Shown here: piece after piece, positions 40,727 through 63,857 of the stretch
How positions within the stretch are numbered: the stretch's first letter is position 1
Layout of the letters: each line of letters begins with the position of its first letter
Assembly: GCF_001677955.1 (NCBI RefSeq)
Contig: NZ_LELA01000079.1
Location: forward strand, 1-64,000
DNA: 64,000 bases
Direction: 5' to 3'
Source of the DNA: Chryseobacterium sp. BGARF1
Lineage (GTDB): Bacteria > Bacteroidota > Bacteroidia > Flavobacteriales > Weeksellaceae
Program-made: the position numbers and the translations under genes
Notes under the pieces: generated by a model
Told to the model about the DNA's origin: nothing
Database searches by the model: none
Seen by the model: the letters and a program-made list of their open reading frames with translations, nothing else

Positions 40727-40742
40727 TGTTTCACGTGAAACA
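40727..40742. promoter_or_regulatory. parS site 1 (ParB binding)
   Basis: TGTTTCACGTGAAACA is an exact match to the general bacterial parS palindrome, TGTTNCACGTGAAACA. The dyad extends to 24 bp (40723-40746). It lies 46 bp upstream of mnmG. ParB spreads from such sites to organise chromosome origins. Confidence 0.93.
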
Positions 40743-40787: not shown

Positions 40788-42650
40788 ATGATTTCAGAAA
40801 TATACGATGTAATTGTAGTAGGTGCAGGTCACGCAGGTTGCGAAGCTGCTGCTGCTGCTGCCAATTTAGGGTCAAAAACTTTATTGGTTACAATGAATAT
40901 GCAAACCATTGGGCAAATGAGTTGCAACCCAGCCATGGGTGGAATTGCCAAAGGACAAATCGTAAGAGAAATCGATGCGATGGGAGGTTATTCAGGAATT
41001 ATTGCAGACAAATCTGCAATCCAGTTTAAGATGCTCAACCTTTCAAAAGGTCCTGCAATGTGGTCTCCAAGAACACAAAATGACAGAATGCTTTTCGCAG
41101 AAGAATGGCGTTTTGCCTTAGAGAATACCCCGAATCTTGATTTCTTTCAAGACATGGTAAAAAGCTTAATTATAGAAAATAATAAAGCTGTAGGTGTTAT
41201 AACTTCTTTAGGTATAAAAATAAGATCCAAATCAGTTGTATTAACAAACGGTACTTTCTTGAATGGCTTAATTCATGTTGGAGATAAACAATTAGGAGGC
41301 GGAAGAATGGGTGAGCCAAGAGCTTTTGGAATCACCGAACAATTGGTTTCTTTAGGTTTTGAAGCTGGAAGAATGAAGACCGGTACTCCACCCAGAGTAG
41401 ATGGAAGAAGCCTCGATTATTCTAAAATGGAAGAACAAAGAGGTGATCAAAATCCTCAAAAGTTCAGTTACTTAGATAGTCCTAAATTAACCAAACAATT
41501 AAGTTGTCATATTGTTTATACCAATGAAGCAGTACATGATATTTTACGTGAAGGTTTTGATAGAAGTCCAATGTTTAATGGTACAATTCAAAGTTTAGGC
41601 CCAAGATATTGCCCAAGTATTGAAGATAAAATCAATCGTTTTGCAGAAAGAAACAGACATCAACTATTTGTAGAACCTGAAGGTTGGAAGACTGTAGAAA
41701 TCTATGTTAATGGTTTTAGTTCTTCTCTTCCAGAAGATGTACAAATTAAAGCAATGAAGCACATCCCAGGATTTGAAAATGTAAAAGTATTCAGACCAGG
41801 CTATGCTATTGAGTATGATTACTTCCCCCCTACTCAGTTAAAGCATACTTTAGAAACAAAATTAGTAGATAATTTATATTTTGCTGGGCAAATCAACGGT
41901 ACAACTGGTTATGAAGAAGCTGCCGGACAAGGATTAATGGCAGGTATTAATGCACATAATAAAGTTCATGAAAAAGATGAATTTATTCTAAACAGAGATG
42001 AAGCTTATATAGGTGTTCTTATTGATGATCTTATTACAAAAGGAACAGAGGAACCTTATAGAATGTTTACCTCAAGAGCTGAATACCGACTTCTTTTAAG
42101 ACAAGATAATGCAGATATCCGACTTACTGAAAAAGCATATCATTTAGGTTTAGCAAAAGAAGAAAGGCTAAAAAGAGTTGAAGAGAAAATCGCTAAAAGT
42201 CAGGAACTTGAAACGTTTTTACGAGAAACTTCTTTAAAGCCAGGAATTATCAATCCTGTTCTTGAAAGCATGGAAAGTAATCCTGTAGATCAAGCCTACA
42301 GAGCTGCACAATTTCTTACAAGACCTAATATTACCCTTGAAAAACTGGAAGAAATTGATTTTATAAAAGAAGTTTCTTCAAAATACAATGATGAAGTAAG
42401 AGAACAAGCGGAAGTAAACATCAAGTATAAAGGTTATATCGAAAAGGAAAAAGAAAATGTTGCAAAGCTTAATCGTTTAGAAAATGTAAAAATTCCTGAA
42501 GATTTTGATTATTTAAAAATATCTAGTCTTTCTGCAGAAGCTAAACAAAAGATGAACAAAGTAAGACCTAAAACAGTAGCTCAAGCAGGTAGAATAAGCG
42601 GTGTTTCACCAGCCGATATAAACGTTTTACTAATCTATTTAGGGCGTTAA
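40788..42650 (+). CDS. mnmG: tRNA uridine-5-carboxymethylaminomethyl modification enzyme MnmG
   Basis: 620 residues, standard length. With MnmE it puts the carboxymethylaminomethyl group on wobble uridines. The FAD-binding VVGAGHAGCEAA is at residues 10-21; SCNPAMGGIAKGQ, GRMKTGTPPRVDG, CPSIEDK and the FAGQINGTTGYEEAAGQG block are all present. The C-terminal helical domain that meets MnmE ends with INVLLIYLGR. It is flanked on both sides by parS palindromes, and in many bacteria this gene lies near the origin. MnmA, for the same base, is at 10.5 kb. Confidence 0.97.
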   Translation: MISEIYDVIVVGAGHAGCEAAAAAANLGSKTLLVTMNMQTIGQMSCNPAMGGIAKGQIVREIDAMGGYSGIIADKSAIQFKMLNLSKGPAMWSPRTQNDRMLFAEEWRFALENTPNLDFFQDMVKSLIIENNKAVGVITSLGIKIRSKSVVLTNGTFLNGLIHVGDKQLGGGRMGEPRAFGITEQLVSLGFEAGRMKTGTPPRVDGRSLDYSKMEEQRGDQNPQKFSYLDSPKLTKQLSCHIVYTNEAVHDILREGFDRSPMFNGTIQSLGPRYCPSIEDKINRFAERNRHQLFVEPEGWKTVEIYVNGFSSSLPEDVQIKAMKHIPGFENVKVFRPGYAIEYDYFPPTQLKHTLETKLVDNLYFAGQINGTTGYEEAAGQGLMAGINAHNKVHEKDEFILNRDEAYIGVLIDDLITKGTEEPYRMFTSRAEYRLLLRQDNADIRLTEKAYHLGLAKEERLKRVEEKIAKSQELETFLRETSLKPGIINPVLESMESNPVDQAYRAAQFLTRPNITLEKLEEIDFIKEVSSKYNDEVREQAEVNIKYKGYIEKEKENVAKLNRLENVKIPEDFDYLKISSLSAEAKQKMNKVRPKTVAQAGRISGVSPADINVLLIYLGR

Positions 42651-42658
42651 ACATAAAA

Positions 42659-42674
42659 TGTTTCACGTGAAACA
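42659..42674. promoter_or_regulatory. parS site 2 (ParB binding)
   Basis: A second exact TGTTTCACGTGAAACA, with an extended dyad from 42656 to 42677, lies 9 bp after mnmG. Sites 1 and 2 are 1.93 kb apart. Confidence 0.93.
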
Positions 42675-42764: not shown

Positions 42765-43586
42765 ATGAAAATAAAAGATTATTTTCTTTCTCAGGAAATA
42801 TTTGAAATAAAAGAAACAGAAACAAAAGGAGTTTTTAAGACCTCTCCTATTCCATCGAATATTTCTAAATACTATGAAAGTGAAGATTACATTTCTCATC
42901 ATCAGGATTCTGGAAGTTTGAAAGAAAAACTTTATAAATTTTTACAGTCTTTTAATTTACAGTATAAAAAAACAATCCTTTTAGACCGAATTAAAAAAGG
43001 TTCAAGAGTATTAGATTATGGTTGTGGTGCAGGACAGTTTGTAAAATTCATAGAAAATGATTTTGAAACTTTTGGGTTTGAGCCCAATTCAGATGCTTTA
43101 AAAGCAGTTCATAATAAAATTACAAAAGCAACAATTTTAGATTCTATAAATTCCATTGAAGACCAAAGTTTAGATGCTATAACACTTTGGCATGTTTTCG
43201 AGCACGTGGAAAATCAAGATGAGATGCTAGAAATTTTTAATAAAAAATTAAAAGATAAAGGTTTACTCATTATTGCTGTTCCCAACCCAACTTCTTACGA
43301 TGCAAAACATTATAAAGAATTTTGGGCAGCCTACGACGTACCGAGACATATTTATCATTTTTCTAAAAATGGAATGGAAAATTTAATTTCTAAAAAACCA
43401 AATTGGAAATTGAGAAAAATAAAACCTTTGGTATTAGATTCCTACTACATCTCAATGTTGAGCGAAAAATACAAAAAATCACCATTTTTTTGGCTAAAAG
43501 CAGTAATTCACGGAACTATTTCTAACATAAAGGCTCTTTTTTCAAACGAATTTTCAAGTTTGATATACATTATCGAAAAAAGATAG
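42765..43586 (+). CDS. Class I SAM-dependent methyltransferase
   Basis: 273 residues. The methyltransferase fold is marked by motif I (VLDYGCGAGQFV), motif II (TFGFEPNSDALKA) and the post-II strand DAITLWHVFEHV, ending with the LLIIAVPNPTSYDAKHYKEFW region. This is the pattern of small-molecule, lipid or glycan methyltransferases (UbiG-like). No N-terminal partner domain is visible, and the substrate cannot be read. The first 50 residues (FLSQEIFEIKETETKGVF) resemble the lead of methyltransferases in surface-glycan loci. It follows the second parS and is closed by its own terminator. Confidence 0.88.
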   Translation: MKIKDYFLSQEIFEIKETETKGVFKTSPIPSNISKYYESEDYISHHQDSGSLKEKLYKFLQSFNLQYKKTILLDRIKKGSRVLDYGCGAGQFVKFIENDFETFGFEPNSDALKAVHNKITKATILDSINSIEDQSLDAITLWHVFEHVENQDEMLEIFNKKLKDKGLLIIAVPNPTSYDAKHYKEFWAAYDVPRHIYHFSKNGMENLISKKPNWKLRKIKPLVLDSYYISMLSEKYKKSPFFWLKAVIHGTISNIKALFSNEFSSLIYIIEKR

Positions 43587-43645: not shown

Positions 43646-43680
43646 AAAAACTCGAGATACAATCTCGAGTTTTTTATTTT
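43646..43680 (+). terminator. Terminator after the methyltransferase gene
   Basis: AAAAACTCGAGAT pairs with ATCTCGAGTTTTT around ACA (loop 43659-43661), with T-runs after it. Confidence 0.9.
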
Positions 43681-43794: not shown

Positions 43795-44560
43795 CATTAA
43801 TCAAGATTAAAAATAAATTCCAGCTAGAACTAACTGGTTGAGAATCTCACAGAATTTTTTAATTTATGATAAGCACAGTACAGAAGAGTGAAAACAGCAG
43901 AGCATGAAAAAAAAATACTAAGAATTATATATTTTATTTTTTGGGATTAATTTTAGAAATAATTATAAAACTAAAGATTCAAACTAAGGCTCTGAGAATC
44001 TCATAAAATTTTTAAAATAAACACAAGTACAGTACAGGAGATTTAAAATAGGACTAAATGAAACCAAAAAAATCAAGAATTGTAAATTTTACTTTACTGA
44101 ATCAAGTTTGATAATTTAGAAATAATTACAAACTCAAATTAAGCCGCTGAGAATCTCATATAATTTTTTAAGCCAACACAAGTACAGTACAGGAGATTCA
44201 AAATGGCATTAACTGAAAAAAGAAGATATCAAGAATTATATATTTTTCTTCTTGGGATTACAATAATGGAGATTTGAAAATATAGAAATAATTGCGAGTT
44301 CAAATAAAGCCCTTGAGAATCTCATAGAATTTTTTAAACTAAGATAAGTACAGTATAAGAGATTCAAAACAACACTAAATGAAAAAGAAAATACTAAGAA
44401 TTAAATACATTATATTTTTTCTATTAGGTTATGAAGATTTGAAAATCTAGAAATACTTACGAGTTCAATTAAAGCCTCTGAGAATCTTATATAATTTATT
44501 TGATTGGTGCTAATACAGTATAGCAGCAGGAGAAAGCAGTAAAATTTTCTAAAATACAGT
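43795..44560. repeat. Tandem array of about five degenerate 155-166 bp units
   Basis: Each unit carries GAGAATCTCA (starts 43840, 43994, 44149, 44315; GAGAATCTTA at 44480), an AT run, AAGTACAGTACAGGAGATT or a variant, then an AT-rich tail and a TAGAAATAATTxC block before AAAGCC and the next unit. Spacings are 154, 155, 166 and 165 bp. In the third and fourth units GAATCTC can pair with the following GAGATTC, and in the second by a G-T pair; the first and last are more decayed. No coding frame covers it. It fills most of the 1.08 kb gap between the methyltransferase gene and pgk; I can name no function. Confidence 0.85.
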
Positions 44561-44615: not shown

Positions 44616-44662
44616 AATTGAAAGTCGGTTGTAATATATAGCCGACTTTCAATTATTTTTAT
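44616..44662. terminator. Bidirectional terminator after pgk and the repeat array
   Basis: AATTGAAAGTCGG (44616-44628) pairs perfectly with CCGACTTTCAATT (44642-44654). Plus-strand ATTTTTAT follows, minus-strand TTTAATAT follows. It ends pgk and would also stop any rightward transcript of the array. Confidence 0.85.
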
Positions 44663-44666
44663 AAAT

Positions 44667-45857
44667 TTAGTTGTTTATCGCAGCAACACCTGGAAGTTCC
44701 AGACCTTCTAAACTTTCTAGCATAGCACCGCCTCCAGTAGAAACATAGCTCACCTTATCAGCGTAACCAAACTGCTTTACAAAAGCAACACTATCCCCTC
44801 CTCCTACAAGAGAAAAAGCGCCTAATTTAGTAGCTTCAGCTATACTTTCACCAAGAGCAACCGTTCCTGCAGCAAAGTTTGACATTTCAAAAACTCCGAT
44901 AGGCCCGTTCCATAAAATAGTTCTAGAATTTAAAAGCACATCATTAAACTGATCTCTTGATTTTACACCTGCATCAAGTCCCATCCATCCTTCAGGAATT
45001 TCGTAGATATCAACTTCTCTCCTATCAGCATCATTACTAAAGCTTTCAGCAATAATTGTATCTGAAGGAAGATAAACTCTTACATTGTGTTCTTTAGCTT
45101 TTCCTAAAATTTCTAGAGCCAAAGGTAATTTATCTTCTTCAACTAGTGAATTCCCAATTTTACCTCCCAAAGCTTTAATAAATGTGAAAGCCATACCTCC
45201 ACCAATGATTAAATTGTCAACTGCAGGCAGGATATTTTCAATAATTGTAATCTTAGTTGAAACTTTAGAGCCTCCAAGTATAGCAGTAATCGGTTTTTCA
45301 CCACTTTTCAAAACTTTATCAATTGCTTTTAGTTCATTAGCCATCAATGAACCGAAGAATTTAGTTGAATTAAAGAACTTAGCAATCACAGCTGTAGATG
45401 CATGAGCCCTGTGTGCAGTACCAAAAGCATCGTTTACATAAGCATCTCCCAACTTAGAAAGTTGCTCGGCAAAGCCTTCGTCACCTTTTTCTTCCTCATT
45501 ATGAAAACGTAAGTTCTCTAATAATAAAATTTCACCAGGTTGAAGTTCAGCAGCAGCTTTTTCAGCTTTCCCACCTATCGACTCTTCTACAAACTTTACT
45601 TCTTGCCCTAAAACAGCAGAAACCTCGTCTAAAATATTTTTAAGAGAAAATTCATTTTTTACTTCTCCTTTGGGTCTCCCAAGGTGCGTCATCAAAATTA
45701 CAGAACCTCCATCTTTTAGAATTTTTTCAACAGTTGGTTTCACCGCAACAATTCTTGTATTGTCTGTAACTTTCAGTTGATCATCTTGTGGAACATTGAA
45801 ATCAACTCTTACCAGAGCTTTCTTATCTTTAAAATTGAAATCGTTGATTGTTTTCAT
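44667..45857 (-). CDS. pgk: Phosphoglycerate kinase
   Basis: 396 residues from ATG 45857; an ATG at 45881 would add eight residues not seen in relatives. It converts 1,3-bisphosphoglycerate and ADP to 3-phosphoglycerate and ATP in glycolysis. The signature [11 protein letters not shown] is at the start, [10 protein letters not shown] follows, then AHRAHAST, the hinge GGSKVSTKI and the nucleotide loop [10 protein letters not shown] with STGGGAMLE. Length is normal. It reads leftward away from the candidate oriC and ends in a strong terminator. No other glycolytic gene is in the window. Confidence 0.96.
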
Positions 45858-45959
45858 ACTTAAAATTATATTTTTTGCCATGAGAAATTGTCTATCTGAG
45901 TAGAAATTTTAAATTTTCATTCGTCAGAACAATTTCACGAATTATTTTGAATTTTAGTT

Positions 45960-49558: not shown

Positions 49559-50521
49559 ATGAAATTATATTATACCTTCTTTTTTATTTTTGTTTTTCTG
49601 TGTTGTAGTTCGCAGGAAATCATCGACAAAGAATCTTTCAAGAAATGCAAAAAGGAGTTCAGTAAAAAAATATGCCTTTCTGATGAAGATGGAGATGGCG
49701 TTTTATTTTATTTAGACCATTGTCCGAAAGACGCTGGGGCTGCAGAAAATAATGGTTGTCCTTGGCCAGATATTGATGGCGATGGAGTAATCGATAAAGA
49801 TGATATATGTCCTTCAGTTGCAGGACCTCAGGAAAATAGGGGTTGCCCGTGGTCGGATATAGATGGGGATGGCATTTTAGATAAAGATGATGCTTGCCCT
49901 ACTGTTCCAGGAGTACCAGAAGAAGATGGCTGTCCCAAGAAAAATATTTATCAATCTCATAGGTATTCTCAAGAAGAATTAGACGAAGTAAAGAATAAAT
50001 TTTTAGACAAAACAAAAAATATTAATTACGGAAAACTGGCAGATCTTATCTTTAGTAAAATTGATTTAAAAGGATATAAATCAAAAATGATAACCTTAGA
50101 AATTGCGAGTTTTTCACAAATGGGAGGTTGTGGACAAGATAGAACAGATTATTCACCAACAAATCTAAGAGTAAATTTGGCTTCAGAATTGTTTTGGAAT
50201 GAAAATAACTTCAAAAAATTTGTAAATAAATTTCCATCAAAGATTGTTTTTCCATACAGTGAAAATGAAGATGTAAATAAAAAATTACAAGCTTTTAAAA
50301 AGATTTATTCTAAAAAAAGTAACGGAATGACCTTTTACAACGCAAAAAATAACTTTAAAGAATTAAATAGTAAAGAAAATAGTCCATACAGAAACTTTCA
50401 TATTTACATTTTCTTTGAAGAAAATGATGAAATTTTCATCAAAATAAATGAATATTCACATTTAGAACGAAATTATTTCCGATTACAAGCTAAAGGAAAT
50501 ACCTTTATACAATTAAATTAA
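49559..50521 (+). CDS. Secreted protein with thrombospondin type 3-like calcium repeats
   Basis: 320 residues. After a signal peptide (about 1-20), three calcium-binding repeats follow with DxDGDGxxDxxDxCP: DEDGDGVLFYLDHCP, DIDGDGVIDKDDICP and DIDGDGILDKDDACP. Cys and Pro pairs (NGCPWP, RGCPWS, DGCPKK) match TSP3 repeats, which occur in OmpA-type and adhesive proteins. The remaining 190 residues are a basic domain I do not recognise; no OmpA peptidoglycan-binding motif is visible. It is exported. It ends 2 bp before rnr, so read-through is likely. Confidence 0.85.
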   Translation: MKLYYTFFFIFVFLCCSSQEIIDKESFKKCKKEFSKKICLSDEDGDGVLFYLDHCPKDAGAAENNGCPWPDIDGDGVIDKDDICPSVAGPQENRGCPWSDIDGDGILDKDDACPTVPGVPEEDGCPKKNIYQSHRYSQEELDEVKNKFLDKTKNINYGKLADLIFSKIDLKGYKSKMITLEIASFSQMGGCGQDRTDYSPTNLRVNLASELFWNENNFKKFVNKFPSKIVFPYSENEDVNKKLQAFKKIYSKKSNGMTFYNAKNNFKELNSKENSPYRNFHIYIFFEENDEIFIKINEYSHLERNYFRLQAKGNTFIQLN

Positions 50522-63137: not shown

Positions 63138-63857
63138 ATGAAAGATTTTGATCTAGATAATTTAGAACGCCAAAACATTTACGCAGTACCTGAAAATATG
63201 TTTAAAAATATTCAGGATAAGGTGTTGAGTGGAGTAAAAGATTTTGATCTGGAGAATTTAGAACGTAAAAATATTTACAAAGTTTCTGAGAATATATTTG
63301 AAGATATTCAGGAAAAGGTTCTAAGCAGAGTTCAAGGTTTTGATCTGGAAAAATTAGAGCGCCAAAACATTTACGCAGTACCTGAAAATATGTTTGAAAA
63401 TATTCAGAACAGAGTGATGGGTGAAATAAAGACTGAGCGAAAAGCTCCAATTTTCAAAATGAATTGGGGATATGCAGCAGCAGCGTCTTTAGCTCTTATT
63501 TTTGGGTCGACTTTTGTTTATAATTTAAACTCAGATTCTTCAACCAATGGAGATTCAAACCTTAACTATACTGATAACAGAACTGCACCTAAGAAAGAAA
63601 GTCAACTTGCATATGAAACTTTGGAATCAGATTTAACTTCGATAGAAAATCCGAATCAAAGAACTGAAAAACAGATGAATATAAAGTCCATCGTTTCGAA
63701 AGTTGCTAATAATGATTCTGAAAAGAAGAATAAAAAAACGGTAAAAACGGTTAATGAAATCCATATGAACGAATATTTAGAATCGCTTAACAATTCGGAA
63801 ATAGCAGAATTGGCAAACAATTCTAGCCAAGATGTTTATTTAGATTTATATAATTAA
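63138..63857 (+). CDS. Probable membrane-bound anti-sigma factor with threefold 32-residue repeat
   Basis: 239 residues from ATG 63138; a TTG at 63123 is less likely. The N-terminus has three tandem 32-residue repeats (about 2-97) built on FDLDNLERQNIYAVPENMF and NIQDKVLSGV. One membrane helix follows (about 112-133, WGYAAAASLALIFGSTFVY). The periplasmic tail is low-complexity, with no known domain. The position after an ECF sigma gene and the single helix are those of an anti-sigma factor; the repeats could be sigma-binding. No classical zinc-binding motif is visible. A further secreted-protein gene follows. Confidence 0.7.
   Translation: MKDFDLDNLERQNIYAVPENMFKNIQDKVLSGVKDFDLENLERKNIYKVSENIFEDIQEKVLSRVQGFDLEKLERQNIYAVPENMFENIQNRVMGEIKTERKAPIFKMNWGYAAAASLALIFGSTFVYNLNSDSSTNGDSNLNYTDNRTAPKKESQLAYETLESDLTSIENPNQRTEKQMNIKSIVSKVANNDSEKKNKKTVKTVNEIHMNEYLESLNNSEIAELANNSSQDVYLDLYN

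Follow-up and report, generated by a model that had tools for sequence, protein, structure and literature searches.

Among the described signals that mark a position on a bacterial chromosome, parS is palindromic and KOPS are short and very frequent. The Ter macrodomain of the Enterobacterales is that of MatP and matS, and a passage of PMC3330122 describes matS as a 13-bp target with 23 repeats over 800 kb. Asymmetric terminus sites are found in Tus-Ter of Escherichia coli and RTP-Ter of Bacillus subtilis, where a DNA-binding protein gene encoded in the terminus itself holds the site; according to a section of PMC10331603, tus and rtp are autoregulated via a ter site in the promoter. The dif site of XerCD is likewise located at the terminus, and Kono and colleagues, in an excerpt of PMC3025954, predicted dif in all 19 Bacteroidetes examined, 14 of them via a Proteobacteria profile. 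XerD is in turn cited as an SMC unloader at the B. subtilis terminus in one part of PMC12322038. As far as our searches of the open-access literature went, the organisation and termination of Bacteroidota chromosomes are not described beyond dif prediction; a search by topic found there no description of an ori/ter site family like the one presented here, and no title on this subject stood among the matches listed for open-access papers containing CTGAGAATCG.

The site considered here is ~60-70 bp long and consists of box A, a T-tract and then box B (GTACAG/GTAT), which lies ~35-40 bp downstream. Each unit of a tandem array in the window, the 64,000-nucleotide stretch of Chryseobacterium DNA that was analysed, carries one copy of it, and in this family of Bacteroidota it is placed both in the pgk gap beside parS, in some genomes, and around dif at the opposite pole. 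As with matS, candidate recognition sites are concentrated in, and dispersed over, the terminus region. Where matS is a short palindromic site with many copies in Ter, however, this one is longer, asymmetric and few in number, a genome having 1-3 matches (E <= 0.01) at distances of up to 283 kb from dif, and has additional copies on the parS side. Asymmetric terminus sites, and a terminus-encoded DNA-binding protein gene holding the site (here of the XRE type), are shared with Tus-Ter and RTP-Ter; unlike in those systems, the site lies in the coding region and not in a promoter, in 20/20 genomes dif falls outside the interval between the XRE and radical-SAM copies that face each other, and the GC skew of two genomes shows no switch within that interval. 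The resemblance to dif lies in the location at the terminus and in a box A readable as an imperfect 11-6-11 palindrome, but dif in these genomes is TCCTATAATTTATATTATGTTAAAT, present in 41/41 genomes (<=3 mismatches) at another position. Like parS and KOPS, the site is a chromosome-position-specific DNA signal, and its array lies beside parS, which is nevertheless a separate sequence here. The likeness to SMC unloading by XerD is one of possible function, in that a terminus site class acting on parS-loaded SMC would explain copies at both poles.

The tandem array beside pgk

The sequence-only reading had placed five units at 43840, 43994, 44149, 44315 and 44480, and these starts agree with both Tandem Repeats Finder and the spacing, the five forming one tandem array (~43.8-44.6 kb). 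Run on the window, Tandem Repeats Finder gave three overlapping rows with periods 155 and 166 (array period 155-166, scores 432-472) and limits of 43839..44497 on the + strand; as ungapped copies, the units lie 154, 155, 166 and 165 bp apart. With up to three mismatches, GAGAATCTCATANAATTT has six matches in the window, five of which are the units, against 1.36 expected, and 0/100 shuffles reached six. All four window matches of AGTACAGTACAGGAGATT fall in the array (0.03 expected), and unit 5 carries this sequence only in degenerate form. R2, a sequence-only site model of 41 rows, matches the + strand core site of every unit: the degenerate 5'-most unit 1 (43825..43894, matched at 43828-43894 with E 3.2e-11 in its own genome), unit 2 (43979..44048, E 1.3e-12), unit 3 (44134..44203, E 2.6e-14), unit 4 (44300..44369, E 2.7e-13) and unit 5 (44465..44534, matched at 44465-44531, E 1.9e-11). 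Box A reads nnCTGAGAATCTCATAnA in the window array as opposed to TCTAATCGCTGAGAATCGnnTAnA in the terminus copies, from which the left (5') half of the array box has diverged.

The gap that holds the array measures 1080 bp from stop codon to stop codon, bearing out the 1.08 kb given earlier, and the genes on either side converge on it. These are ORFs whose names come from the earlier reading of the sequence, namely the methyltransferase-like gene as 5' neighbour (42765..43586, + strand) and pgk as 3' neighbour (44667..45881, - strand). Terminator-like hairpins, both inverted repeats, occur 3' of the methyltransferase-like gene (43646..43674, scoring on both strands) and on the pgk side (44616..44654, scoring on the + strand). 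The array had been said to end at a strong hairpin; the pgk-side hairpin is indeed present, but it lies ~80 bp past the last core, and the array therefore does not abut it. The origin marker mnmG (40788..42650, + strand; an ORF named in the same way, with one match in each of 40 genomes) is flanked by parS, as claimed, both copies (40727..40742 and 42659..42674, no strand assigned) being perfect in a pattern scan for TGTTTCACGTGAAACA, which we take to be the parS consensus; the second copy is ~1.2 kb from the array. Of the candidate oriC proposed nearby, what stands is a shallow cumulative GC-skew minimum at ~34-46 kb of the window, but a pattern scan of the whole window found a single TTATCCACA box and no cluster. 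Elsewhere in the window, an 87-bp tandem repeat (49745-49912) lies within an ORF having DxDGDG repeats, presumably thrombospondin type 3-like, and a coding 96-bp tandem repeat of 2.8 copies (63141-63407) opens the ORF after a gene that we assume from its sequence to be sigma-factor-like.

An array of structured RNAs had also been suggested, together with a covariation check on the aligned units, and this suggestion failed. By sequence, the GAATCTC/GAGATTC stem named in support of it can form in units 3 and 4, and in unit 2 with a G-U pair, but the MFE fold uses the stem in units 2 and 3 and not in unit 4. Over 27 units, 45.0% of cells in this stem pair, compared to 45.2% in shuffles (a level reached by 370/500 shuffles), and one pair is changed on both sides compared to 1.6 in shuffles. 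RNAalifold returned no consensus pairs in alignments of 27 or 37 units, and nothing in the window reached the gathering score of an Rfam family. Folded alone, units 2, 3 and 4 do fold a little better than shuffles (z of -1.21, -1.20 and -2.32), which would favour RNA genes, but unit 1 folds worse than shuffles (z of 1.73); the + strand of the units lacks a terminator-like site, and promoter-like matches showed no excess (10 against 8.0 in shuffles). On the Rfam, consensus-pair, stem-pairing, folding and terminator/promoter results, structured RNA was rejected, and it is extremely improbable that the units are an array of structured RNA genes. What the array core conserves is its sequence rather than an RNA structure.

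Copies in relatives and around dif

Loci with the same gap were fetched via the methyltransferase-like gene, as the best 80 of 161 named loci and 30 from genus genomes, of which five without pgk were left out; the 113 loci with both flanks, repeats and earlier loci included, reduced to 89 distinct gap sequences, the window's among them. The named relatives of the methyltransferase-like gene are mostly Chryseobacterium, which points to that genus for the window. A profile seeded on 33 units, and built from these same gaps, found 41 units in 22/89 distinct gaps at E <= 0.01, with 1-5 copies each and all 41 on the strand of the methyltransferase-like gene. The comparison of equivalent gaps that the sequence-only reading had recommended thus shows units that recur in a single orientation. 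The other 67/89 gaps are without a unit at this threshold, and the origin copy is therefore dispensable. Unit number is five in the window, four in C. tagetis, three in C. balustinum, C. taiwanense, C. gwangjuense, strain YIM B08800 and G096, two in G027 and G083, and one in 13 others, of which five belong to Epilithonimonas (lactis, caeni, mollis, hungarica and strain JDS). Between species, the 28 array units are 87% identical over a 10-nt stretch beginning at TGAGAAT; farther out, in windows spanning -80 to -21 or lying at +80 and beyond, identity is 30-47%, compared to the 33% that random letters would give. In the 13 single-copy gaps the core has 93% identity and the flanks outside it 43-65%, so the contrast between core and flank is weaker there. 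One locus (L029) has two adjacent 166-bp units that are nearly identical, which is a recent duplication.

The core pattern, with <=2 mismatches, has 54 matches in 36/98 genus genomes, 25 in the pgk gap and 29 elsewhere, compared to four for the reversed pattern. R2 matches 146/246 family genomes from 16/33 genera (E <= 0.001), and a DNA search of 23 genomes of the same order outside the family gave short matches in two. Copies lie upstream of a small lipoprotein gene, antisense in the XRE (HTH_3) gene, within a radical-SAM gene and inside a small number of further genes. At one lipoprotein locus near dif (L209, 3796-4161), three tandem copies lie 147-149 bp apart, in the pitch class of the origin array though the locus is unrelated. 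A further copy in the window's own genome, G000, at C55:112561 (L132), is surrounded by ORFs that appear mobile-element-like, and two IMG/VR contigs (L213 and L420) carry one core site each, that of L213 located ~45 bp upstream of a small phage gene. A plasmid or phage origin of the site was considered and rejected, as blastn gave only short and weak matches to 5 plasmid and 7 phage records.

The positions of the copies were compared in 40 single-contig genomes, 22 taken from the R1/R2 hit lists and 18 from the genus sample regardless of hits (G060, G068 and G085, single-contig genomes of that sample, were left out); 25/40 chromosome sizes were rounded to 0.1 Mb in the computation of dif distances. 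At E <= 0.01 these genomes have 85 site matches, of which the 10 at the mnmG/pgk locus (7 genomes) were set apart ahead of the dif count, leaving 75 elsewhere. Within 200 kb of dif lie 64/75, with 7.3 expected if placement were uniform, and within 1 kb 11/75, with 0.04 expected, counts that do not represent independent events because the loci are largely orthologous and the uniform expectation ignores shared ancestry. Between dif and mnmG lies 0.43-0.57 of the chromosome, G002 (0.68) being the one exception. Among the 17 copies <=10 kb from dif, 13 point toward it and 4 away.

The matches to dif itself number 43, one per genome except for a second, three-mismatch match in each of G000 and G115. 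In G000 a perfect classical dif at C106:33385 has a site copy (C106:33109, L257; upstream of a small lipoprotein gene) ~0.25 kb away. That the site might be dif had been suggested by the imperfect palindrome of box A and by a copy at the skew maximum of G289; this was refuted by the classical dif, which is separate in 41/41 genomes, and the site, with 1-5 matches per genome at E <= 0.01, is not a one-per-chromosome consensus match. The GC skew of G289, noisy over its 20 sampled places, is positive in 7/9 samples from 600 kb to 2.3 Mb and negative in 7/11 from 2.42 Mb round to 430 kb. Its cumulative minimum at ~605 kb (read over 560-660 kb) adjoins parS (608, 610 and 621 kb) and the pgk-gap copy (611 kb), and the XRE copy at 2427.5 kb is 2.5 kb from the cumulative maximum at 2425 kb (a stretch of 180 kb, 2320-2500 kb, was read). 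The cumulative maximum of G091 (1065 kb) is at dif (1066.3 kb) and not between the XRE and radical-SAM copies. In G002 the maximum, at 4405 kb, is the edge of the stretch read, the curve being nearly flat to ~4425 kb; dif is found at 4417.5 kb, and the XRE/radical-SAM pair occupies 4464-4505 kb. The sites of these two genomes lie 45-87 kb from dif. The maximum of G178 is at 815 kb, compared to dif at 759.9 kb. In G002 (4417-4515 kb) and G091 (1065-1160 kb), the skew is weak from dif as far as the radical-SAM site, past which its slope roughly triples, a change that may be chance in two genomes.

Codon-level constraint in the XRE and radical-SAM genes

Orthologues of the XRE gene were searched for with the protein sequence rather than the motif (E <= 1e-15), and there is exactly one in each of the 40 genomes, with an identity of 49-84%. 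All 40 carry CTAATCGCTGAGAATCG antisense (23 exact, 17 with one mismatch), including 18/18 genomes sampled regardless of hits. The codons of the site are TCT in 40/40, CAG in 40/40, CGA in 36/36 and TTA in 40/40, and the DSQRL stretch, sitting in a linker that is otherwise variable, shows the least synonymous variation of the 92 windows scored (-8.8; mean -1.98, s.d. 1.65). The site is thus kept at synonymous positions in a terminus-located, single-copy gene, and its copies occupy orthologous codon positions across 6 genera. The inverse word GATTCTC follows at a fixed distance, 47 bases start to start, in 35/40. Distances from this gene to dif range over 2.8-282 kb (median 96 kb). Although 30 genomes have it on one side of dif and 10 on the opposite side, its site is directed at dif in 40/40; symmetric inversions keep the direction of a gene relative to dif, however, so this orientation alone is no proof of polarity. 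Compared with NCBIfam, the XRE protein (e.g. L211:3705-4241) resembles phage RstR weakly and below the cut-off (31.4 of 80 bits), RstR being the repressor of a dif-integrating phage.

The radical-SAM loci, from 20 genomes and near the terminus, were chosen by motif match. There the site core again has the lowest value among 219 windows (-6.16; mean -2.54, s.d. 1.22) and the second-lowest is at box B (-6.11), with low windows running a few codons past it. These copies point away from dif in 20/20 and face the XRE copies in all 20 genomes that have both. In G229 a match lies in the expected region, outside any radical-SAM gene, none having been found there. The XRE codons, the radical-SAM codons and intergenic copies with the same core show the DNA conserved whatever its coding context, as would be expected of a protein-binding site.

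A candidate ori/ter system and its rivals

The earlier suggestion of a protein-binding array linked to origin organisation is in keeping with a core conserved as DNA, with the place beside parS and with a site family at ter and ori; the binding itself is a step that we infer. The reading preferred here, whose chances we consider evenly balanced, is that the array units represent a recognition site, multiplied next to parS in a single lineage, that belongs to a candidate ori/ter chromosome system. Each unit would represent one DNA recognition site of box A, T-tract and box B. A sequence-specific protein would bind it and so mark the two poles, ori and ter, for the organisation or segregation of the chromosome or for replication termination, and tandem duplication beside parS would raise local occupancy. 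Following the example of tus and rtp, the first candidate reader is the XRE protein, which is encoded at the terminus by a gene that itself contains the site, although the analogy is incomplete, given a site in the coding region and a dif outside the facing pair. An organising or SMC-related role at both poles would be just as conceivable. In its most specific form, the proposal is a family-specific system unrelated to MatP, Tus and RTP, in which XRE reads an asymmetric two-box site that is found within the XRE gene and around dif and that, in some lineages, also makes up an array next to parS; this we advance tentatively, as a minor expectation. Against the preferred reading stand the many gaps without a unit, the mixed orientation of the copies (all of those in radical-SAM genes and 4/17 of those within 10 kb of dif point away from it) and the altered left half of box A in the array, along with the origin of 22/40 genomes in hit lists and, for the radical-SAM loci, their choice by motif and a frozen stretch that extends past box B. 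The weakest link is that the array beside pgk is still working rather than a relic of amplification.

Such a relic is what a possible but doubtful alternative holds, namely that the terminus copies are functional and the pgk-side array is a neutral satellite, a copy that arrived or survived there, was duplicated by slippage or recombination and is now decaying. The dispensability of the origin copy, the twin units of L029, a unit number varying from 1 to 5 and the diverged 5' half of box A would all fit it, but a core at 87% identity between species amid outer windows at 30-47%, the shared orientation of 41/41 units and the retention of single copies in five Epilithonimonas loci and eight other loci argue against it. 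A polar trap for replication forks, like Tus-Ter or RTP, with XRE as the terminator protein and forks stopped from one side, was suggested by the facing pairs. It is consistent with a non-palindromic site having few copies around the terminus, with XRE sites directed at dif in 40/40 genomes and with a terminus gene for the candidate protein that holds the site, as tus and rtp hold theirs in autoregulated promoters. Because dif lies outside the facing pair, a clean trap was dropped and kept only as a rival, and an unlikely one: the GC-skew maximum is not between the pair in G091 and sits at the edge of the stretch read in G002, the orientation of copies within 10 kb of dif is mixed, and origin-side copies would have to be permissive.

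Repressors of the XRE type bind operators, and the site could be a mere operator of the XRE regulator, serving autoregulation or a small regulon, with its polar placement a by-product of gene positions. Several copies upstream of the small lipoprotein gene, and the one upstream of a phage gene, would suit an operator. That copies lie within XRE, radical-SAM and a few other coding sequences and not at promoters, that they cluster at dif far above the uniform expectation, and that the array is enclosed by two terminator-like hairpins and two genes converging on it, render this reading slightly more unlikely still than the fork trap. We judge it improbable that the copies are attachment sites of mobile elements or phages (Xer-dependent or MITE-like) accumulating near dif, an idea that the two IMG/VR contigs, the G000 copy in a mobile-element-like region and the ssDNA phages of Flavobacterium, inferred in a passage of PMC9719478 to integrate at dif, would favour. 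The true dif is a different sequence, however, and an exact reverse GATTCTC, which would have suggested the terminal inverted repeats of a MITE or IS, is absent from the window's gap; the XRE and radical-SAM copies are at orthologous codon positions and not at insertion junctions, and the plasmid and phage records matched only weakly.

Returning to the preferred reading of a candidate ori/ter chromosome system, a site class at both poles, together with codon-level constraint in an HTH gene of 40/40 sampled genomes, constitutes a testable handle, which comprises the site, a candidate protein, and genomes that either have or lack origin copies. An ori/ter site family would also account for an otherwise odd tandem array. 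If the reading is true, the system would tie the origin to the handling of the terminus, for example through a fork trap or through SMC loading and unloading at the two poles, and the conservation of the site, as read from sequence, points to what may be an undescribed chromosome-organising system.
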